Source: Cystobacter fuscus (GTDB lineage Bacteria > Myxococcota > Myxococcia > Myxococcales > Myxococcaceae). From it: a stretch of DNA of 64,000 bases. The DNA is taken from assembly GCF_002305875.1 (NCBI RefSeq), contig NZ_CP022098.1, positions 1,612,001-1,676,000 on the forward strand, given 5' to 3'. Shown here one piece after another: positions 26,518 through 49,552 of the stretch; within the stretch, counting starts at the first letter, position 1; every line of letters begins with the position of its first letter. The position numbers and the translations under genes are program-made. The notes below the pieces were generated by a model. The model was not told the origin of the DNA and made no database searches. It was given only the letters and a program-made list of their open reading frames with translations.

Positions 26518-26544
26518 GACTCCTTCACCGCTTGCGTGTGAAGT

Positions 26545-27015
26545 TCAGGCTTCTTCGTCAGGCAGAAGCGTGAGCAGGAGTTCGTCGTCGGGGCCGAGCG
26601 GTTTCCACCCGGGCGGAGGCGGTGTGGCGCGGAGTACGGCCCTGGCCTGCCTGACGCGCTCCTTGTGAGTTTCAGGGGTGAAGGACGTCCAAAAGCCGAG
26701 CGCCTTGGCAATCTTGAAACGAATTGCGTCGTCCATCTCGGCGGGCCACCCCTCGGGGAGAGCCTCGTACAATTCGCGAACGAACTGTCCGCGCACCAAA
26801 CGTGTGAGCTGATGGTTCCGCTCCGCCTCGGCCACCAATCCGCTGAATACCTGCACTGCGTTGAGGTCATCCTTGCCAAGCTCTTCAGCCAGCTCCACCA
26901 ACGAGGCGGTGGGACGTGTTTCGGCGAAGGCGGTGAGTGAATCATGACCGCGCTCGCGAACCCGCTCGTAGAGGCGGACCCTCCAGTTGCCGTCCCAGGA
27001 ACGTCCCTCGCTCAT
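26545..27015 (-). CDS. Paralogous small protein, copy A (candidate immunity protein)
   Basis: 156 residues, mostly helical, of unknown biochemical function. It is one of three related genes in this window (others end at 45132 and 45643). Copies A and B have the same length, align without gaps and are about three-quarters identical by my count. Shared blocks are RSWxGNW, VRLYERVRERG, DSLTAFxE, LAEELGKDD, TPETH and PPPPGWxPLGPDDELL. The start is placed at ATG 27015 because similarity of the protein proper begins there in all three. The frame stays open upstream to 27105, but that stretch is a remnant of another gene. It sits between the OmpA-like lipoprotein and an AlkC-like gene, away from copies B and C. 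An immunity role is inferred from the toxin-tail-like remnants in front of the copies. Confidence 0.65.
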   Translation of the reverse strand: MSEGRSWDGNWRVRLYERVRERGHDSLTAFAETRPTASLVELAEELGKDDLNAVQVFSGLVAEAERNHQLTRLVRGQFVRELYEALPEGWPAEMDDAIRFKIAKALGFWTSFTPETHKERVRQARAVLRATPPPPGWKPLGPDDELLLTLLPDEEA

Positions 27016-27123
27016 CGGTCCCCTCCAGCGAACGAAGTTCATCGGGATTTTGTAACGCTGCATGGCCTCCACAGCGATGTCCAGAACCTCGTTCCGCGCC
27101 AACATCCGGCCAGCTTCGATTGA
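27016..27123 (-). pseudogene. 3' tail remnant of a lost upstream gene before copy A
   Basis: About 36 codons in the frame of copy A, reading IEAGRMLARNEVLDI near the start and YKIPMNFVRWRGP at the end. The same tail, with a 1-nt length difference, precedes copy B, and its last eight codons precede copy C. It therefore looks like the C-terminal end of a gene normally positioned directly before this family, whose remainder is missing here. In B the tail ends in a stop codon overlapping the start ATG; in A the tail has fused in frame with the small gene. Confidence 0.5.
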
Positions 27124-39475: not shown

Positions 39476-39613
39476 CCGTCACGTGAGCCCGCTTCGCATT
39501 GCAGGATGGGCACACCCCTCGTCACCAGGGCACACGCTACCGCCAGGCGTCCACGAGACTCCGTGGTGTGAATGCACTTCCAGTGGATCAAGCCGGGGTT
39601 AGAGTGCGTGCCC

Positions 39614-40027
39614 ATGCCGTCTTTCGACTCGAACCTCTTCCCCCTCTGGCTCGTCCAGGTCCTGTGTGCGCTCTTCCTGGCCATCACCTTCCTCCAGTCC
39701 GGCCTCGACAAGGTCATCGACTGGAAGGGAAACCTGGGGTGGCTCACCGGACACTTCTCCAAGAGCCCGCTGCGCGGCGTGGTGCCGCTGCTGCTGGCCA
39801 CCCTCACGGTGCTGGAGCTGGCCGCCGGCGCGCTGAGCGCGGCCGGGGTCGCGTTCCTGGTGCTCTCTGGCGCCACGCGGGTGGCCATGTGGGGCGCGGC
39901 CCTCTCGGGGCTCTCCTTCGTGGCCCTCTTCTTCGGCCAGCGCATGGCCAAGGACTACGCGGGCGCCGCGGGCCTGGTTCCCTACTTCCTCGTCTCCCTG
40001 GTGGGCCTGCTCACCCTGCGCGGCTGA
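39614..40027 (+). CDS. DoxX-like membrane protein
   Basis: 137 residues with four predicted helices. The first carries FLQSGLDKVIDW and the loop NLGWLTGHFS, a pattern typical of DoxX/DoxD-like proteins; later helices contain LELAAGALSAAG and FFGQRMAKDYAGAAG. Family members are small membrane proteins sometimes tied to redox or surfactant stress; function here is unknown. ATG 39614 is chosen over an earlier opening at 39572 because the upstream residues show no membrane character. It converges with the tetR gene at 40046. Confidence 0.7.
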   Translation: MPSFDSNLFPLWLVQVLCALFLAITFLQSGLDKVIDWKGNLGWLTGHFSKSPLRGVVPLLLATLTVLELAAGALSAAGVAFLVLSGATRVAMWGAALSGLSFVALFFGQRMAKDYAGAAGLVPYFLVSLVGLLTLRG

Positions 40028-40045
40028 AACACCCTGACATCTTCC

Positions 40046-40621
40046 TCACCCCAGGTGGGCCTTCAATTCGTCGGCGGCGGACTTGAGGATCTCCCGGGAG
40101 AGCTTGTCGTCGTTCACCGCGCGGGCCATGGACACGGCGCCGACCAGCGTGGAGAGCGCGGTGATGGCCTTCTTTCTTCTCGCGGGTTGGGTGTCAGCGG
40201 CGATCAGCCGGGTGAGCAGCTCCAGGTACGTGCCCACCTGCTGTGTATAGGCGGACCTCGCCCGGTCGTTGCTGCGGGCCACGTCTCCGGCGAGGGTCGT
40301 GACGGCACAACTGGTCGCCAGATGATCGCGGTGCGCCGCGCTGAGGTAGCCATCCACCAGCGCCGCCAGGGGGGACTGCGAGCTGTTCGTCAGGACGGCC
40401 GTCGCCCGCTTTCCTCCATCCTGTAGCGCGCGCTCGATCGCTTCGGCCACCAGCTCGTCGCGCGAGGCGAAGTGCCGGTAGAAGCCGCCGTGCGTCAGGC
40501 CGGCCTCCTTCATGAGCTCTGCCACGCCGATGCCGTCGATACCCGCTTCGCGGAACCGCGCGGCGGCGATCCGCACGATGTGCTCGTGACTCTCTGCCTT
40601 GTCTTCCCGTGAATGGCCCAT
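40046..40621 (-). CDS. TetR-family repressor, divergent from tautomerase
   Basis: 191 residues. The helix-turn-helix segment GIGVAELMKEAGLTHGGFYRHFASRDELV is of the subgroup that controls small redox enzymes (TetR proteins with THGGFYRHF). The C-terminal part begins SQSPLAALVDGYLSAAHRD and contains a conserved cysteine in ATSCAV. ATG 40621 is chosen; the upstream frame runs into the operators. Two near-identical palindromes lie between it and the tautomerase gene. Confidence 0.88.
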   Translation of the reverse strand: MGHSREDKAESHEHIVRIAAARFREAGIDGIGVAELMKEAGLTHGGFYRHFASRDELVAEAIERALQDGGKRATAVLTNSSQSPLAALVDGYLSAAHRDHLATSCAVTTLAGDVARSNDRARSAYTQQVGTYLELLTRLIAADTQPARRKKAITALSTLVGAVSMARAVNDDKLSREILKSAADELKAHLG

Positions 40622-40655
40622 CCGAAAAATACCTCCTGCTGCTGGCTTGACAAGG

Positions 40656-40675
40656 AGGATGACGGTCGTCATCCT
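40656..40675. promoter_or_regulatory. TetR operator 1 for the tautomerase locus
   Basis: A perfect 20-bp palindrome, AGGATGACG-GT-CGTCATCCT. A TTGACA hexamer at 40647-40652 just precedes it, so the palindrome would cover the promoter spacer of the plus-strand tautomerase transcript. Confidence 0.75.
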
Positions 40676-40684
40676 GGTTCATGT

Positions 40685-40702
40685 GGATGACGGTCGTCAT
40701 CC
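40685..40702. promoter_or_regulatory. TetR operator 2 for the tautomerase locus
   Basis: An 18-bp palindrome, GGATGACG-GT-CGTCATCC, identical in core to operator 1 and centred 28 bp from it. The duplicated spacing suggests two repressor dimers on nearly the same DNA face. Confidence 0.75.
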
Positions 40703-40757
40703 TGATTGTCTTGCCGCGATCGAGTCCACCATCGCCCGAAGTGACGAGGAGCACCCC

Positions 40758-41180
40758 ATGCCCATGATTGATGTGTACGCCGTTGCGGGAACCTTCGGCA
40801 ACAAACGCGAGCTGACCCAGGCGCTCAACGCGGCGCTGATGAAGTGGGAGAAGGTTCCCAGGATCCCGCTGTTCCTGGACAATACCGCCGCGTTCATCCA
40901 CGACCTGCAACCCGACGCGCTCGCCACGGCCCGGGGAGACAGCAACTACGTCCGCGTCCAGATCCTGACCCCGGTCGGGACGCTCGACCGCGAGAAGAAG
41001 CTTGGCGTGGTCAAGGAGCTGACCGACATCATCGCCTCCGCGGCGGGGGATCCCAGCCTCGTGGAGCGCACCTGGGTCCTCATCGCCGAGGCACCGGACG
41101 GGGGGTGGGGCATCGATGGGCACGCCTACACCAATGCCGAGATCGCCGAGGCCGCTCGCCGCGAACTCTCGGGAAGGTAG
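40758..41180 (+). CDS. Tautomerase-family protein
   Basis: 140 residues. The mature protein would begin with proline after methionine removal (MPMIDVYAVAG), and this N-terminal proline is the catalytic base of the 4-oxalocrotonate tautomerase superfamily. The strand-helix units YAVAGTFGNKRELTQAL and GVVKELTDIIASAAG follow the family plan, with a C-terminal extension. GAGGAG lies about 7 nt before ATG 40758. The gene is divergent from tetR, with two operators between them, so it is probably induced by a small electrophile or aromatic compound. About 215 bp after the stop show nothing recognisable. Confidence 0.82.
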   Translation: MPMIDVYAVAGTFGNKRELTQALNAALMKWEKVPRIPLFLDNTAAFIHDLQPDALATARGDSNYVRVQILTPVGTLDREKKLGVVKELTDIIASAAGDPSLVERTWVLIAEAPDGGWGIDGHAYTNAEIAEAARRELSGR

Positions 41181-41396
41181 CGTTCACAGGAGACGATGGG
41201 ACGCGAGGCGATGGTGTCATCGCTTGCACCCATGCCAGCGTCCCGCCCTTGTTCAGGGGCTCCATCCTCGCCGCTGCCAAGGCGGCCGGCTCGCCACTCG
41301 CGGCTTCCACTCAGCAGTCGTTGCCCTCCAGTGGGATGCCCGCCAGGCGTCGTGCCCGGCGGGCGCGCTGGGGGATATCCGAGCCCCGGAGTCAGC

Positions 41397-43309
41397 TCAG
41401 TCGCCGTAGACCTGGGTTTCGTAGAACGATGCCGCACCACCGCTCGAGCCCGTCACCGTCACGCGCACGTAACGATACTTCGTGGTACTCGGCAGCGTGT
41501 CGTAACTCACGCCCGGGGTGGTATTTTTCGTCTTGTCCACCACGGTCGTGTATTTCGCGTCGTCGTTGCTGACCTCAATCTTGTATTTATAGGCGATCGT
41601 GGAGTTCTGATACCAGTGGGTCACGATCGAGCGCAGGGTCCTCTCCGAGCCGAGATCCACGCGCCACCACTGCGGGAAGGTGCTCGTCGAGGCGCTCCAA
41701 CGGTCGGCGGTGCTGCCGTTGTTGCCTTTACCCGAAGTGTTCGAGCCGTCGGAGGAGCTGGTCGTGACCGCTCTGCCCTGCGAGAGCAGGGTATTGGTCG
41801 TCTGCGCACCGGCTTCGAGCTGGACGGCGTCATACATGATGCCATAGGCGGGCCAGACCGGGCGCTCGCCAGTGTATGTGCCCGAGCCTGATTTGCGGAC
41901 GGTAATGGAGACCGTGTTCTGGCCGGCGTGGAGGAGACTGGCGTCGAACGTGATGGGATAGACCTGATACTCTCCCCGCAACACGGCATCCCGATACAAC
42001 GCCGCATCATCAGACGTATAGACTCCGCGATAGGTGTCCGGCGAGATATCGGTTCCGTTCACATACACATGGAATGCACCAAGGCCGGATGCGCCCGCGA
42101 GCGCCACCGTCAAAGTGCATGGGTTGGGCGGAACCGCTGGCAGGTTGAAGTTGATGTTCCACTTGTTCGAATGGTAGAGACCATCCGGTCCGGCGACGAC
42201 TGGCTGCGCATAATACCAGTCGTCGTTCGTGCTGCTGCCCACGGTGTAGGTGAGCTCGTCGCTACCCATTTCATCGTAATACCGGAACCACAGGCCAAAC
42301 TGCCGGGGCAGATTGCCGAAGCGGAACTCACCGGCGGAACGATTGGGTGTCCCCACGCGGAACAGCCGCTGCTGTTGCTGCGGCGGATTCCACGTCAACG
42401 TGCCCAGATCGGTCGTCGTGTTGGCGGTCACGGTCACGTTACCGAGTTGATAATCTCCCAGCACGCCGGGCACGTAGGCGTAGAGGGTGTAGGTGTGCGG
42501 GCGCAGCTTCGGCACGGTGAAATGGCCATTGGCATCCGCCTGGGTGGAGTAGATGTAGTTCATCGCGCCCTGGAAGATCCAATCCATGCCCGGATCCGCC
42601 ACGACGATCTGGGCGTTCGCGGTGGACTGTCCCGGGATCTTCAGCGTCCCCGTGATCGTGCCGCGATTGCGGGGATATACGCTCTCGCTGACCGCCAGCC
42701 AGGAGTAGGGCCAGGCGGCCACTTCCTGCGCGCCTTTCGTCTGCGCATCCTGCAGCAGCGCCGTGTGGCTGGTGCCGGTGTTCGCGTAGACCAGATACGG
42801 GCCATAGATCTTCTGCCAGACCTTGCCTGTCGGGAGGGTCTGGTCGGGGCCCTCGCCGCTCCCGTGGTTTTCGTTCGTGTTGATGTTCATCCCCATGCCT
42901 TGCACCGCCCCGCGCAGCTTCGTCGGGCCACCATTCAGGTATTCCTGGCTGCCGTTGAGGATCCAGATTCCATACTGGTCATTCGCGATGCCAAACGTGT
43001 TCAGCGACGAAGTCTCCGGGCCGGAGTAGACCGCCCAGTCATACTTGGTCCAGGTCGGCTTGAGATTGTAGTTCAGGCCGATCATCCCTTGCGGATTGGG
43101 CGTGTAGTCAGATTCGGGCTGCTGCCCGTTGTGAACTTCGTGATCGTGGCGTTGGCCTTGGTGACCGTGGCCGAGACGAGGCCGTTGGACAGGACGACAT
43201 AGGTGCCGTAGTCCGTCAGCGTGACGTTCTGTGCCTCCGCAATGGAGGCCAGGCCAACCATTGCAACTAACGCCGCTACCAGGAGGCGAGCTGTCGGGAT
43301 GCTTTACAT
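41397..43309 (-). pseudogene. Rhamnogalacturonan lyase (PL4-type) with discoidin domain, decayed
   Basis: GAGGAGG sits 6 nt before ATG 43309, but the second codon is TAA; reading on gives a normal signal peptide (SIPTARLLVAALVAMVGLASIAEA) and the mature start QNVTLTDYGTYVVLSNGLVSATV. The frame then changes between about 43,110 and 43,150. The rest continues in another frame to 41397 with NGSQEYLNGGPTK, a fibronectin-like and a carbohydrate-binding domain typical of family 4 lyases, and a final F5/8 type C module. Much of the usual N-terminal catalytic region is missing at the frame change, implying a deletion. AAA to TAA at codon 2 would explain the stop. A truncated product from an internal start is possible but would lack secretion and most of the active domain. 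Confidence 0.75.
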
Positions 43310-43594
43310 ATGCACCTCCTCGTGAGGATGAGACGGAGAGGGTCTTGTGGCTCAGGCTTTGTACCCGCTTGGGGGAGAGCGGGAGTCGAAGTCACGAAGA
43401 CCGCAATTGGGTCTCCCCTGGCCGGTGGGATGGACCGGGACCACATGTGCCGTGTCAGTTTACGTGAAACGCAAGGTCCGTACTAGCTGGGAAGGTAATA
43501 TTTCCATTTATTTCTGCTCTATCTGGATGTGGAGAATCTCCCCAAGCGAGTTCTGGTGTGGTGAAATGCTCCTCAGGGCGAGACAGGAGATGCA

Positions 43595-44271: not shown

Positions 44272-45135
44272 TCAGGCATGGGTATCAAGATGCAATGGCC
44301 TCCTCGCCACGACGAGCCATGTCACTCCGCCGAGCAGGACCTTCCCTCCTGTCCGATGGGGCTGGCATTCGCGGGCAACCTCCTCCTCCCACGCCCGTTG
44401 TGTCTCCGGCGGCAGCTCCTCCACGATCTTCGCCACGGGGCCCCCCAGCTCGCGAATCCATCGCACGACTCCTGTTCCATCCTCGGCTTCCATCACGGGC
44501 ACATGCATGGACTCGACGTGCTCCATGACGAACCCGGTGCGCGTCAACAACGGGCGCAGCAACTCGGGGTCGGAGAAGCGGAACACGCTCGGGGCCTCGG
44601 GCTCGACAGGGGGAAGCGGACGGAAGCGGGCCAGGCTCCTGCGCGGCAGCGATGCGTACTCGACCTGCCCGGGCCCCGCCCAACATGCGCACACCAGGGG
44701 AGCGGATGGACGGAGCGCCCGCCAGAGCCGCTCGAGTGCCCGCTCGGGCCGGGGCATGTACATCAACGCCCAGCGCACGGTCGCCGCATCGAAAGACTGC
44801 TCCGGCACCTCGAGCATTTCCGCATCTGCGGTACGAAACTCGATGTTCGAGAGGGCCTGGGCACGTGCCTTCTCCCGTGCGACCTCCAGCATGCCGTCGG
44901 ACAGGTCCGTTCCCAGCACGAAGCCGGAGGGGCCCACCCGGTGCGCGGCGCGCAGGGAAGGCTCGCCCATCCCCGAAGCCACATCGAGCACCCTCATGCC
45001 CGGCCGAAGGCAGGCCAGATCGAGCATCCGTTCGCTGACGGACGCCGTGAGGCGGGACTCCATCTCATCGTATCGGCGGACGGTGGCGAGGTGCTCGGCC
45101 CACCAAGTCTGCTGTGGTGGTCTCTGGGTTGTCAT
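44272..45135 (-). CDS. SAM-dependent class I methyltransferase
   Basis: 287 residues. The SAM-binding motif I is VLDVASGMGEPSL, followed by the acidic GTDLSDGML, the ADAEMLEVPEQSFDA region and motif-IV-like VRWALMYMPRPERAL. It belongs to the broad UbiE-like group acting on small molecules. Its ATG overlaps the stop of copy C of the repeated family (ATGA, 45132-45135), so copies B, C and this gene form one transcript. That linkage is curious, because the overlap implies coupled translation of a candidate immunity protein and a methyltransferase. The substrate is unknown. Confidence 0.85.
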   Translation of the reverse strand: MTTQRPPQQTWWAEHLATVRRYDEMESRLTASVSERMLDLACLRPGMRVLDVASGMGEPSLRAAHRVGPSGFVLGTDLSDGMLEVAREKARAQALSNIEFRTADAEMLEVPEQSFDAATVRWALMYMPRPERALERLWRALRPSAPLVCACWAGPGQVEYASLPRRSLARFRPLPPVEPEAPSVFRFSDPELLRPLLTRTGFVMEHVESMHVPVMEAEDGTGVVRWIRELGGPVAKIVEELPPETQRAWEEEVARECQPHRTGGKVLLGGVTWLVVARRPLHLDTHA

Positions 45136-45620
45136 GTCTTTTTCACCGGTCTGGGAAACTCATCGGGCAGGAGTGTGCGCAGCAACTCGTCGTCGGGGCC
45201 GAGTGGACGCCAGCCTGGCGGCGGTGGTGAGGCGAGGAGTGCATCGCTGGCCTGGTCGACGCACTCCTTATGGGTTTCTGGGGTGTAGGCAAACCACGAG
45301 CCGAGTGCCTTGGCGACCTTGAAACGGTTGGCGTCGTCCATCACTGCTGGCCAACCGCCGGGGACGCTTTGAGACCACAGGCGCACGAATACATCACGCA
45401 CAAAGCGCGTGACCTGCTTGCGCTGCTCCGCCTCGGCGAGCAGCCCGCGCAACACCTGCACCCCGGCGATGTCGTCCTCGCCAAGCTCCTTGGCCAGAGC
45501 CACCAGAGAAGCGGTGGGGCGCGCATCCGCGAAGGCAGTGAGCGAATCGTAACCACGCTCGCGGACTCGCTCGTACAGGCGGACCGCCCAGTTGCCAGTC
45601 CAGGACCGCTCCTCGCTCAT
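45132..45620 (-). CDS. Paralogous small protein, copy C (candidate immunity protein)
   Basis: 162 residues, the most divergent of three copies. It keeps RSWTGNW, VRLYERVRERGYDSLTAF, TPETH, PPPPGWRPLGPDDELL and LLPDE, and adds an eight-residue C-terminal extension. ATG 45620 aligns with the starts of copies A and B. Between this start and the stop of copy B lie only 22 nt, which still read LNFIPWRE-stop in the frame that, in B, reads MNFTRWGGR-stop. So this is a tandem duplicate retaining just the last codons of the upstream tail. Downstream it overlaps a methyltransferase gene. Biochemical function unknown. Confidence 0.65.
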   Translation of the reverse strand: MSEERSWTGNWAVRLYERVRERGYDSLTAFADARPTASLVALAKELGEDDIAGVQVLRGLLAEAEQRKQVTRFVRDVFVRLWSQSVPGGWPAVMDDANRFKVAKALGSWFAYTPETHKECVDQASDALLASPPPPGWRPLGPDDELLRTLLPDEFPRPVKKT

Positions 45621-45642
45621 TATTCTCTCCAAGGAATGAAGT

Positions 45643-46113
45643 TCAGACTTCCTCGTCAGGTAGGAGCGTTCGTAGCAACTCGTCGTCAGGCCCGAGCGGG
45701 CGCCATCCGGGCGGTGGTGGCGTGGCTCGGAGCGCCGCCTTGGCCTGCTCGACGCGCTTCTGATGAGTCTCTGGCGTGTATGTGCCCCAACGGGAGACTG
45801 CCACGGCAACCTTGAAGCGGTTTGCATCATCCATCACGGTCGGCCAGCCGTTTGGGAGTGCTTCGGCCAGCTCGCGCACGAGTTGGCTGCGCACCAAACG
45901 AGAGAGCCGACGACTCCGCTCCGCCTCGGCGACCAGCCCACTGAACACCTGCACTGCGGCAATGTCATCCTTGCCAAGCTCCTCGGCCAGCTCCAGCAGC
46001 GAGGCGGTAGGATACGCCTCGGTGAAGGCGGTGAGCGAATCATAACCTCGCTCGCGGACCCGCTCATATAAACGCACCTTCCAGTTACCTTCCCAGGAAC
46101 GGTCCTTGCTCAT
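45643..46113 (-). CDS. Paralogous small protein, copy B (candidate immunity protein)
   Basis: 156 residues, the same length as copy A and alignable to it without gaps. Helical, charged, cytosolic, no signal peptide or membrane segment. ATG 46113 overlaps the stop codon of a preceding coding remnant in the arrangement ATGA, the usual junction between a toxin gene and its immunity gene. The remnant has lost everything except about its last 36 codons. The divergent neighbour is a SitI6-type immunity gene that also has a tail fragment in front of it. An immunity role is inferred from this context alone. Confidence 0.67.
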   Translation of the reverse strand: MSKDRSWEGNWKVRLYERVRERGYDSLTAFTEAYPTASLLELAEELGKDDIAAVQVFSGLVAEAERSRRLSRLVRSQLVRELAEALPNGWPTVMDDANRFKVAVAVSRWGTYTPETHQKRVEQAKAALRATPPPPGWRPLGPDDELLRTLLPDEEV

Positions 46114-46218
46114 CTTCCACCCCAACGCGTGAAATTCATCGGGAGCTTGTACTCTTCATATACCTCGCGACGATGCCCAGGACTTCGTTTCGCGTCAATG
46201 TTCGCCCAGCTTCGATCT
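46110..46218 (-). pseudogene. 3' tail remnant of a lost gene before copy B
   Basis: Reads IEAGRTLTRNEVLGIVARYM and, after a 1-nt frame change near 46,158, YKLPMNFTRWGGR followed by TGA overlapping the ATG of copy B. The matching stretch in front of copy A lies at 27,016-27,123. Similarity to A stops near the IEAGR segment, so both loci kept about the same amount of the lost gene. Confidence 0.5.
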
Positions 46219-46227
46219 CGGCGTCGC

Positions 46228-46326
46228 ATGGCTTTTCCCCTGGCCGAGGAACTCCGGGAATGGTTCTATCGCTTTGAACTGACGGGCCCCATCATGCCAT
46301 ACCGCCACGGAGGTCAGGTGAGATGA
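46228..46326 (+). pseudogene. C-terminal remnant of a SitA-type lipoprotein toxin gene
   Basis: About 32 codons, ending in YRFELTGPIMPYRHGGQVR and a TGA that overlaps the ATG of the sitI6-like gene (46323-46326). From memory, FELTGPI-type endings are typical of myxobacterial SitA-family lipoprotein toxins encoded just before double-CXXCG immunity genes. No lipoprotein start or nuclease domain precedes it; the sequence upstream is the oppositely oriented tail of copy B. It is best read as the stub of a deleted toxin gene. Confidence 0.5.
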
Positions 46327-47057
46327 CGAAGTTCTACCGGCTCCGAGCGCCAAGACAATCACGGTACACAGGTCACCTCAGCGCCACTCACAAGTGGGCC
46401 CTTCCCGGGCTGAGCTGCCCTGAATGCAAAGCCACCTGGGCCGGGGGCTTCACCGCGTACCCGGGCGTGGACATGTCCGCCATCCCCGAGCGCGGCGAGT
46501 ACGAGACGCCCAGGCCGGAGCCATTCGACGAGTTCACGCGGCTACGTGAGCGGGTGCGGCCCCTCGTGCCTCCCGAGAGCCCGTTGCTGCCTGGAACGAG
46601 ATTCGGCCCACTGGTGGGCACGGCCACCGGCACCTTCAGCCCGCTATTTTTCCACTACGTCGAGATGCCATTGGTGCATCCCGAGGCACTGGAGCGGCTG
46701 CGGGCCGCAGGAGTGCGGGGCTTGCGAGGATTCCGAACGGAGCTGAGCTTCCGGCAGAAGAACCCCCCCGAGTTGCTGGAGTTGGAGATTCCTCCCCATG
46801 GCCGTCTGCACCCGGACTGCACGCCGGAGCGGCCCCCCAAGTGCCCCAAGTGCGGCTGGGACGATTTCGCCTTCCCGGAGGACCCCATCCTGGATGCAGC
46901 GTCGCTTCCGGCTCACATTGATCTGTTCCGGCTGAGCGACTTCGAGACCATCTTCATCGCCACCGAGCGCTTCGTGGACACGGTGAGGCGCCTGAATCTG
47001 ACGGTGAGGCGCCTGAATCTGGAGGAGATCGACTTCCGCGAACTGCCCACGCGCTGA
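46323..47057 (+). CDS. SitI6-family double-CXXCG immunity protein (orphan)
   Basis: 244 residues. Two zinc-ribbon-like pairs are present: CPEC at 32-35 (followed by K, where family members usually have G) and CPKCG at 174-178. Between them come VGTATGTFSP, FRTELSFRQKNPPELLELEI and HGRLHPDC, matching the Myxococcus double-CXXCG paralogous family now known as SitI6, which protects against the SitA6 lipoprotein toxin exchanged between kin cells by outer-membrane exchange. The C-terminus has a perfect in-frame duplication, TVRRLNL twice. The ATG overlaps the stop of a toxin-like stub, but no full sitA or sitB is present, so it is an orphan immunity gene. Confidence 0.82.
   Translation: MTKFYRLRAPRQSRYTGHLSATHKWALPGLSCPECKATWAGGFTAYPGVDMSAIPERGEYETPRPEPFDEFTRLRERVRPLVPPESPLLPGTRFGPLVGTATGTFSPLFFHYVEMPLVHPEALERLRAAGVRGLRGFRTELSFRQKNPPELLELEIPPHGRLHPDCTPERPPKCPKCGWDDFAFPEDPILDAASLPAHIDLFRLSDFETIFIATERFVDTVRRLNLTVRRLNLEEIDFRELPTR
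46980..47021 (+). repeat. Tandem 21-bp duplication inside the sitI6-like gene
   Basis: Two perfect adjacent copies of a 21-bp unit (46980-47000 and 47001-47021), encoding TVRRLNL twice. The identity of both copies at the nucleotide level indicates a recent slippage event that kept the frame. Confidence 0.9.
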
Positions 47058-47210: not shown

Positions 47211-47837
47211 TCATAACGTGCCCTTCGTCCTCCTGTGCTCGATAAGTTCATCCAAGAGTTCTTCAAGTGCGTTGAGCGACATTATCAACTCCATACCAGC
47301 GAATTCATCTCCCTTGTCATTCGTCACCAAGATCCACTCTTCTTGGGATGCTTGGGCGGCGATAAGCCAGTCGACGGTCGCGCTGTAGCGCTTACCTCTC
47401 TTCTTGAGTTCCTCCGAATCCGTCAGCCCGAGACTCTTAACGTAGCGCAATCGCTTCGCCTCACGCCAAGCATCAATGTCGGGAAATTTCCCGGCGATCC
47501 GTTCGGCGGAGCGCTCGGAATGACGCTTCTCGAAAGCGACAACGTGAAGTCCCTTGTCCTGAAGGCCTTGATCAACCACGGAAGCATCATAGCGCATGCC
47601 CCTCTTAGAGAGTTTTTGCCGGATGTCGAGAAGCATCTCCATGTGAACGATGGCCGGTACGCATAAACGAAGGTTGAGCCCTCTCGGACCTGCATTGAGT
47701 TGATTGACGCGATTGCAGAGTTCAGTCAGGCGCCTTCCTGCCCCAAACATTGCGTTTGTGTCGAGAGCAAGGGAGACTTCGCCTGCACGGATACGCGCTT
47801 CAGGACTGTTCATCGCCGTCATCACCCGGTTCTTCAT
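47211..47837 (-). CDS. PIN-domain nuclease (VapC-like toxin/effector)
   Basis: 208 residues, longer than simple VapC toxins (about 130-140). PIN acidic residues are visible: D26 (LALDTNAM), E67 (HMEMLL), D156 (TVDWLIAAQA) and D174 (LVTNDKGDEF), the expected metal-binding tetrad of an RNase. Residues about 75-150 are a lysine/arginine-rich insert. The gene overlaps the end of the ATPase gene; starts at 47837, 47822 and 47813 are possible, the last having GGGTGAT before it, and the longest is given. The ATPase ends in an AbrB/VapB-like domain, so this resembles a VapBC pair in which the antitoxin domain is fused to an ATPase. GC is clearly below the window norm. Confidence 0.75.
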   Translation of the reverse strand: MKNRVMTAMNSPEARIRAGEVSLALDTNAMFGAGRRLTELCNRVNQLNAGPRGLNLRLCVPAIVHMEMLLDIRQKLSKRGMRYDASVVDQGLQDKGLHVVAFEKRHSERSAERIAGKFPDIDAWREAKRLRYVKSLGLTDSEELKKRGKRYSATVDWLIAAQASQEEWILVTNDKGDEFAGMELIMSLNALEELLDELIEHRRTKGTL

Positions 47838-49116
47838 CGAGTATCATCGCGAACTGCTCATCCGAGAGCATCTCGACGCGATTTTCACGCTCAAGAAACA
47901 TAACCCCCCCACCATTGGGTAGGCCCAACACCTGACGGATGCGCTCGGGCACGCGGACGATTCCATCCGTCGAGAGGTAACAATTGGCCGCGTTCATGCC
48001 AGGAGGAGTAACCTCTTGTGGAAAGCCAACGGCGAGTCGCGCCTGCTCGACCTTTCGCTTGGTCACTACTGGTCCCTTGGGAGTGCGCTCCATCTGGTAG
48101 AAAAAGGGACCCGACTCGAACGCGGGTGAGTGGCTTGTCAGGAAAATCTGGCTGGGTCCACCAAGAACTCCCACGAGCTTCTGTTTGAACACATCCCGGA
48201 GTCGTTCCTGAAGCGAGTAGCGGAGATTGAGTTCTGGCTCTTCAATGGAAACGATGGTCGCATTGGTCATCAGCAATAGGCCAACCAATGAGACACACTG
48301 TTGTACGCCAGAGCCTAGCAGGTGCAAGGGCATGCGTGCAAAAGATGTCTGATAGGATAGGTTTGCCTTGTTTTTATGTCTGTCGTAAATGGCAATAAAC
48401 ATGCCGTCGCCAAGAATGTCGGAAAAGGCACTCATGGCGTCCAGGAATTTTTCCCATCTCCGAGCCTGCTCAAGCTCTGGAGATTCCTTTGCATCATAGA
48501 GCTTGAGGGCAAGCTCTGAACTTGGGAGCCGCTCCACATCAATCAAGGCGAAGCGTTCAATCTGCTGCTTTTGAAACAAAGGATTCCAGGTTAGAAACGA
48601 CAAGAACTGACGGAGGAAATCCCTGGTGGGGATGGCCGGGTGTGCGCCTTGTTGTTTGACTCGGAGCTTGAAAGACACGACATCGAAATAATCGTCGAGC
48701 ACGAAGCTTTTCAAACTGAATAATACGTTGCCGACTTCTCTACGAAGCTCTATTTCGATACTTGCTTGATGAGTATCTGCCTCCGTCTCAAGACCTGCCC
48801 TGAGTAGTTCGTCCTCGTCGGTCTCAATCACCGTTTTCAAGGTGATAGGCTTGGGGCTCTCAAGGTTGAAAATCTCCGTTGGTTCAAAGCCCATTTCTTT
48901 AAGCCGGGTGCTCACATCTACGGACAGTTCTCCGACGGGTAGCCAATCGCCAAGCCGTGTACCTACCAGCGCGAAAAAGACCTGAATGGCCTGAAGCAGA
49001 TTGGACTTGCCCACGTTGTTAGGCCCGTGGATGACGTTGATGGGACCCAGTTCCTCCAGTTTCACGGGCTGCGTCAGATTCTTGAATCCCTGAACTTCAA
49101 AGGTGCGGAGTCTCAT
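47800..49116 (-). CDS. AAA ATPase (OLD/RecF-like) with C-terminal AbrB/VapB-like domain
   Basis: 438 residues. An SMC/OLD-like ATPase: MRLRTFEVQGFKNL start, Walker A GPNNVGKS (31-38), signature region LLGSGVQQCVSL (about 267-278), Walker B with glutamates in IVSIEEPEL (288-296), and sensor H329 (LTSHS). Instead of a TOPRIM nuclease, the C-terminus (about 381-425) reads LSTDGIVRVPERIRQVLGLP...FLERENRVEML, the strand-helix-strand pattern of AbrB/MazE/VapB antitoxin DNA-binding domains. It overlaps the PIN gene by 38 nt or less. Together they may act as a sensor-restrained nuclease in phage or plasmid defence. Start ATG 49116 is where homology begins; no good ribosome site is seen. Lower GC indicates recent acquisition. 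Confidence 0.75.
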   Translation of the reverse strand: MRLRTFEVQGFKNLTQPVKLEELGPINVIHGPNNVGKSNLLQAIQVFFALVGTRLGDWLPVGELSVDVSTRLKEMGFEPTEIFNLESPKPITLKTVIETDEDELLRAGLETEADTHQASIEIELRREVGNVLFSLKSFVLDDYFDVVSFKLRVKQQGAHPAIPTRDFLRQFLSFLTWNPLFQKQQIERFALIDVERLPSSELALKLYDAKESPELEQARRWEKFLDAMSAFSDILGDGMFIAIYDRHKNKANLSYQTSFARMPLHLLGSGVQQCVSLVGLLLMTNATIVSIEEPELNLRYSLQERLRDVFKQKLVGVLGGPSQIFLTSHSPAFESGPFFYQMERTPKGPVVTKRKVEQARLAVGFPQEVTPPGMNAANCYLSTDGIVRVPERIRQVLGLPNGGGVMFLERENRVEMLSDEQFAMILDEEPGDDGDEQS

Positions 49117-49552
49117 CTTGATGACCGCGAGGGCAAGGGGTTTACGACCGTCCCGCCTGCTTACTCCATGCACCCACCTTTCGGCCACCGTGCTCGTAGG
49201 GGGGCGGTGTCGTAGTGTTCGCCTCCCATGTCTCAGCCCTGCCCTCTCGTTGAGCTGAGCGAAGAGCTCTGCTCCACCCGTGCTGACCTGCTCCTCTACA
49301 CCTTCCTGGGCAATACGAGGATGGCTAGGAGGCCACGCTCATAGGCGGGGAACTGGCCATGCGTACGCCTCATTGGCGCCGCCCTCCAGGAACTGATCCT
49401 GCCTCGTTTGAGTGGCTCCACCGCATTTCATGTGGTTCCGCAGCCGCTGATAGGACGGCCACCCTCGTGAAGCCAGTCGAACGAGCGCATGGGAATCCCA
49501 CAACCTGTGGGAGAGCCACTCAAACGGAGCAGGCGCATGCGCGAGCATAGCC
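49117..49552. other. Gene-free stretch between mfd and the ATPase gene
   Basis: About 436 bp without a convincing gene. It must hold the promoter of the ATPase-PIN operon near 49,120-49,200, but no consensus was recognised. A 38-codon frame at 49228-49344 has no recognisable content. The right half is bounded by a 13-bp inverted repeat. Confidence 0.5.
49406..49525. repeat. 120-bp element bounded by 13-bp perfect inverted repeats
   Basis: GTTTGAGTGGCTC (49406-49418) and its exact reverse complement GAGCCACTCAAAC (49513-49525) enclose 94 bp, which contain a smaller hairpin CCCACA/TGTGGG. It is too long-looped for a simple terminator. It resembles a small non-autonomous mobile element or a remnant of one beside mfd; no target-site duplication was recognised. 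Confidence 0.45.

Follow-up and report, generated by a model that had tools for sequence, protein, structure and literature searches.

The window, a stretch of 64,000 nucleotides from Cystobacter fuscus, carries on its minus strand a disrupted gene related to PL4 rhamnogalacturonan lyases. Read on that strand from 43321 to 43304, the gene begins with GAGGAGG-TGCAT-ATG-TAA, that is, a ribosome-binding site (43315–43321) located 5 nt upstream of an ATG (43307–43309) that is followed directly by a TAA stop at codon 2 (ATG and stop together, 43304–43309). An earlier sequence-only reading had described an ideal ribosome site, an ATG and an immediate stop in front of a signal peptide, and both its coordinates and its strand are correct. 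Beyond the TAA, the same frame encodes SIPTARLLVAALVAMVGLASIAEAQNVTLTDYGTYVVLSNGLVSATVTKANATITKFTTGSSPNL before further stops are met. This 5′ remnant (43115–43303, minus), which was aligned to 15 homologues, consists of a signal-peptide-like stretch, after which come the initial strands of the N-terminal lyase domain; the signal peptide and the ribosome site were both judged by eye. Two other starts were considered and rejected: a start further upstream in frame still encounters the TAA, and the ATG at codon 17 would deprive the signal peptide of its positive end and leave the frame change ahead. A promoter scan found none, with a model that may not fit this organism, and the three terminator-like sites detected are near the chance expectation (mean 1.5).

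The second lesion is a frame change combined with a deletion (43115–43133, minus). The homologous lyase frame restarts at about 43115 as ESDYTPNPQGMIGLNYNLKPTWTKYDW, in a different frame from the 5′ remnant, which places the junction at about nt 175–195 of the gene and bears out the shift at 170–200 nt noticed from the letters alone. The comparison with PL4 enzymes that the sequence-only reading had proposed for measuring the deletion was carried out on 15 homologues. Counted in residues between the ITKF column and the column of the TKYDW lysine, in the homologues relative to the window gene, the missing stretch has a median length of 117 residues (range 93–140 by homologue); if a single event caused it, 3n+1 bases were lost on balance. 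The nearest homologue (L029) has 120 residues more than the window gene across the gap. In the alignment, the nine residues that close the 5′ remnant fell within the gap, and the counts of 82–109 were hence not used. Of 23 homologues extracted from their loci, the 15 aligned comprise 14 from genomes sampled in Verrucomicrobiota, together with an Enterobacter plasmid gene whose annotation is polysaccharide lyase; L020, L023, L025, L031, L033, L034, L047 and L057, each of more than 1,100 residues, were omitted, and L032 (1,109 residues) was retained. The deleted portion is the middle of N-terminal domain I, including a conserved stretch of the type HYVLRxGxSGxYxY. An 84-residue segment of L029, used as a query to locate the missing piece at another place in the genome, gave no match at E≤1; this query also missed the 5′ remnant in the window and is thus too insensitive to carry weight.

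Downstream of the junction, the homologous frame is open from 43115 and, from the ATG at 43085, encodes 562 residues (41397–43085, minus) that contain what remains of domain I, followed by domains II and III and by a discoidin domain. Domain II (Pfam fn3_3; 42405–42575, minus; 2.8e-15, 56 bits) is followed by domain III (Pfam CBM-like; 41817–42368, minus; 1.4e-31, 110 bits), both above the Pfam cut-offs and in the order that identifies a PL4 enzyme, and then by the discoidin domain (Pfam F5_F8_type_C; 41427–41768, minus; 1.2e-20), so that the distal modules are intact as had been claimed. Neither fragment has a Pfam match to domain I, although Pfam also fails to detect this domain in certain complete homologues, L030 for example. 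A PDB sequence search with the distal protein returned matches solely from residue 434 onward, in the discoidin part, and one with L030 returned no match.

The N-terminal beta-sandwich catalytic domain is incomplete relative to the 15 homologues, and in this respect the view that a large part of it is missing holds; however, the conserved residues presumed to be catalytic are kept after the gap. These are a lysine (codon 43044–43046, minus, in TKYDW) and a histidine (codon 42864–42866, minus, in NENHG), whose columns are invariant in all 15 homologues. The catalytic residues of the Aspergillus enzyme are K150 and H210, and, from these roles, we take the Lys and His of the window gene to be the corresponding pair, an assignment made by analogy. 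A structure-sequence comparison also revealed a solved chain with an alanine where 1nkg has the lysine of TRSKFYS.

The base composition of the two fragments is of a coding type, with GC3 values of 0.81 and 0.805 compared to 0.71–0.95 in eight neighboring coding stretches. Their GC1 is lower than in these eight stretches (0.52–0.54 versus 0.65–0.72), and the locus, with a GC content of about 0.61, lies below most nearby sequence (about 0.65–0.70). The distal frame, open over 562 codons, reflects either a young decay or a frame that has been kept.

Matches to the gene were sought at the genome level in three phyla, Myxococcota, Verrucomicrobiota and Actinomycetota, the phylum labels of the sampled genomes resting on loci L013 and L014. 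In the sample of the window's own phylum (195 genomes, including its own), five genomes gave a match, namely its own and four with weak partial matches (20–26 bits), and nothing comparable to this PL4 was found in the other 194. Among 39 genomes from the genus, family and order, two carry PL4 domain III: the window's genome, with two copies, and G010, with one. The genus is represented by three further genomes, and these gave no match to the domain. Matches were obtained in 19 of 288 Verrucomicrobiota genomes and in 25 of 150 genomes of the family of G338, a set that partly overlaps with the 288. The best relative found, L029, is from the Verrucomicrobiota genome G338 and is 47% identical over query residues 7–429. 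None of 296 Actinomycetota genomes gave a match, an empty answer that carries no weight, and a locus search in named genomes yielded four loci that match at query residues 416–562, the discoidin end. In a tree of 24 rows (all 23 homologues and the window gene), the window gene pairs with L029 at 91/87 support, below the 95/80 that the program marks as firm, and the branches are long (0.76 for the window gene and 0.51 for L029). L029 has an in-frame TAG within its own domain I (L029:1249–1251), which could represent a pseudogene, a sequencing error or a split gene. Since no close PL4 occurs in the phylum sample and the nearest relative is found in Verrucomicrobiota, horizontal gain of the gene is likely, judging from these sequences, and the acquisition proposed in the sequence-only reading thus appears probable.

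A scar of the gene was identified in another species of the same genus (G003). A stretch of 33 nt (window 41392–41424), comprising the last 28 bases of the frame, with the last lyase codons and the stop codon, and five bases of 3′ flank, is identical in G003 at 33 of 33 positions. It is the sole lyase trace found in this genome, where no protein-level match was detected. In G003, the counterparts of window 39564–40029 (97% identical; presumably a DoxX-like gene, without a Pfam match) and of the stretch from 44269 onward (93% identical; which we take to be methyltransferase-like) are only 85 bases apart, and this gap holds a strong hairpin (−27.1 kcal/mol, z −4.5) followed by the 33 bases. When 39 genomes were searched with a 32-base piece of the remnant, allowing up to three mismatches, it had a single hit each in the window's genome and in G003, and no hit in the other 37; the reversed pattern, used as a control, was found in none of the 39. 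The local score of the G003 remnant is 33, whereas 100 shuffles scored no higher than 16. A chance origin was therefore rejected, given the complete identity and the two controls. No remnant was found in G001, the other close relative, in which the slot is rearranged and two intervals scored 10 and 10 against shuffle maxima of 15 and 17.

The presence of the remnant at the same place in G003 indicates that the lyase gene predates the split between the two species. The simplest reading of the sequences is that the gene was present in their common ancestor and that G003 deleted its copy. The two copies are damaged differently. In the proposed course of events, the gene would have been gained by horizontal transfer before the split; in the window lineage, codon 2 would have become a stop and about 350 bases (3n+1) would have been lost from within the N-terminal lyase domain, and the G003 lineage would have removed nearly the whole gene, leaving the last 28 bases. 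Alternatively, inactivation could predate the split, with G003 then deleting a gene that was already dead. We consider it possible, and put forward tentatively, that two sister species each disabled the same acquired lyase on their own, here through a point mutation and an internal deletion and in G003 through the loss of almost the entire gene, at a slot whose content changes. If true, the locus would document, on a small scale and in nature, how a predator sheds an enzyme for plant polymers and yet retains another that is intact.

The slot differs between the two genomes in other respects. A TetR-like gene, as we take it to be, and a tautomerase gene assigned by Pfam (window 40030–41391) lie beside the lyase remnant and are absent from this place in G003, where only the hairpin is found (L076:3064–3113); the slot is therefore variable on both sides. 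About 240 bases of the neighboring methyltransferase-like gene (window 44584–44828) are also missing in G003 (L076:3458–3464), a further sign of turnover beside the lyase slot. Other features were noted nearby. A low-GC (about 0.51–0.56) two-gene unit (47211–49188, minus), in which an AAA ATPase gene overlaps one for a PIN-domain protein, is possibly a defense or toxin-type module; the ATPase matches AAA_21/AAA_15, with AriA as the best PADLOC model (2.5e-23, one of 71 matching), and a comparison at the locus revealed that G003 has about 1 kb of other sequence in its place. A Gmx_para_CXXCG/SitI6-family immunity protein (46323–47057, plus), whose family points to a myxobacterial origin of the window, is matched by counterparts at the equivalent position in both G001 and G003. 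Window 45132–46125 and 26538–27120 encode a paralogous family of about 160 residues with the C-terminal end WRPLGPDDELLRTLLPDEE; its member at 45643–46125 has no Pfam, NCBIfam or PADLOC match, and a 42-base piece of the WRPLGPDDELLRTLLPDEE tail occurs at 85–95% identity in at least dozens of places in the four genomes of the genus together, among the best 40 candidates per genome.

Together, the TAA at codon 2 and the 3n+1 deletion bar a full-length product. The locus is thus, with high confidence, a pseudogene of a secreted PL4 rhamnogalacturonan lyase with a C-terminal discoidin domain, which was probably acquired horizontally before the split from G003 and then dismantled. The codon-2 stop, the frame change, the deletion and the domain matches all support the inactivated rhamnogalacturonan lyase gene of the sequence-only reading, and the product is presumably absent today, from a gene that presumably once functioned. 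Among the titles and abstract openings retrieved from the literature, none concerned this gene.

Errors of sequencing or assembly, with a gene that is intact in the organism, are very improbable as the source of both lesions, even though codon 2 and the junction are known from one assembly only: the genome is a single contig listed as 100% complete, the frames of the adjacent genes are open, a base substitution in the same gene as a missing block of about 350 bases would be an unusual pattern of error, and a separate genome, G003, has just a remnant of the gene at the same place. Slightly less probable still is that the distal 562-residue frame is translated into a useful truncated protein with sugar-binding or residual lyase activity, starting at the ATG at 43085 or elsewhere inside the gene. 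Such a protein would have a frame free of further stops, the Lys and His, and intact domains II, III and discoidin; however, it would have no signal peptide by eye and hence be cytoplasmic, away from pectin, and would be short of the roughly 117 residues of the lyase domain, the sole SD-like stretch (AAGG) nearly abuts the ATG at 43085, and the region is deleted in the sister species. A reversible switch-off by phase variation or recoding, for which a stop at codon 2 and a shifted frame might in theory serve, can practically be dismissed, as no simple repeat tract is visible by eye at either site and the absent residues are beyond any recoding. We therefore retain the pseudogene interpretation, that is, ordinary decay of a probably acquired carbohydrate enzyme gene. 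It represents a checkable case of a probably foreign gene of this kind in decay, with a scar in a sister species showing an age beyond the split.

The genome contains a second PL4 gene, which encodes 542 residues in an unbroken frame with RhgB_N, fn3_3 and CBM-like domains (domain III at G000:C1:5235724–5236218). Its product matches the Aspergillus rhamnogalacturonase B (1nkg) with 469 bits over residues 36–542 and is therefore of the Aspergillus type; NCBIfam has no family for either PL4 of the genome. The capacity said to have been lost is indeed lost at the lyase locus, but a loss by the organism is unsupported because of this second, intact enzyme. One dead gene is thus poor proof of a lost metabolic ability when an intact enzyme of the same family is present.

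The known PL4 rhamnogalacturonan lyases consist of domains I, II and III (Pfam PF06045/PF09284, PF14686 and PF14683). The window gene shares with them the order of domains II and III, the conserved Lys and His columns and, by eye, an N-terminus resembling a secretion signal, and cleavage of rhamnogalacturonan I by the ancestral enzyme is predicted from this family membership. In contrast to these enzymes, it is broken at codon 2, lacks about 117 residues of domain I and carries an additional discoidin domain at its C-terminus. The PL4-like L029 differs from the window gene in having a CBM96-like N-terminal part (E 7.6e-5, below the Pfam cut-off) and an InlB-repeat-like C-terminal domain, with no discoidin match. 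The second PL4 of the genome (L018:1492–3120, minus) has domains II and III as in the window gene, but differs from it in its intact frame and its RhgB_N catalytic domain (2e-91).
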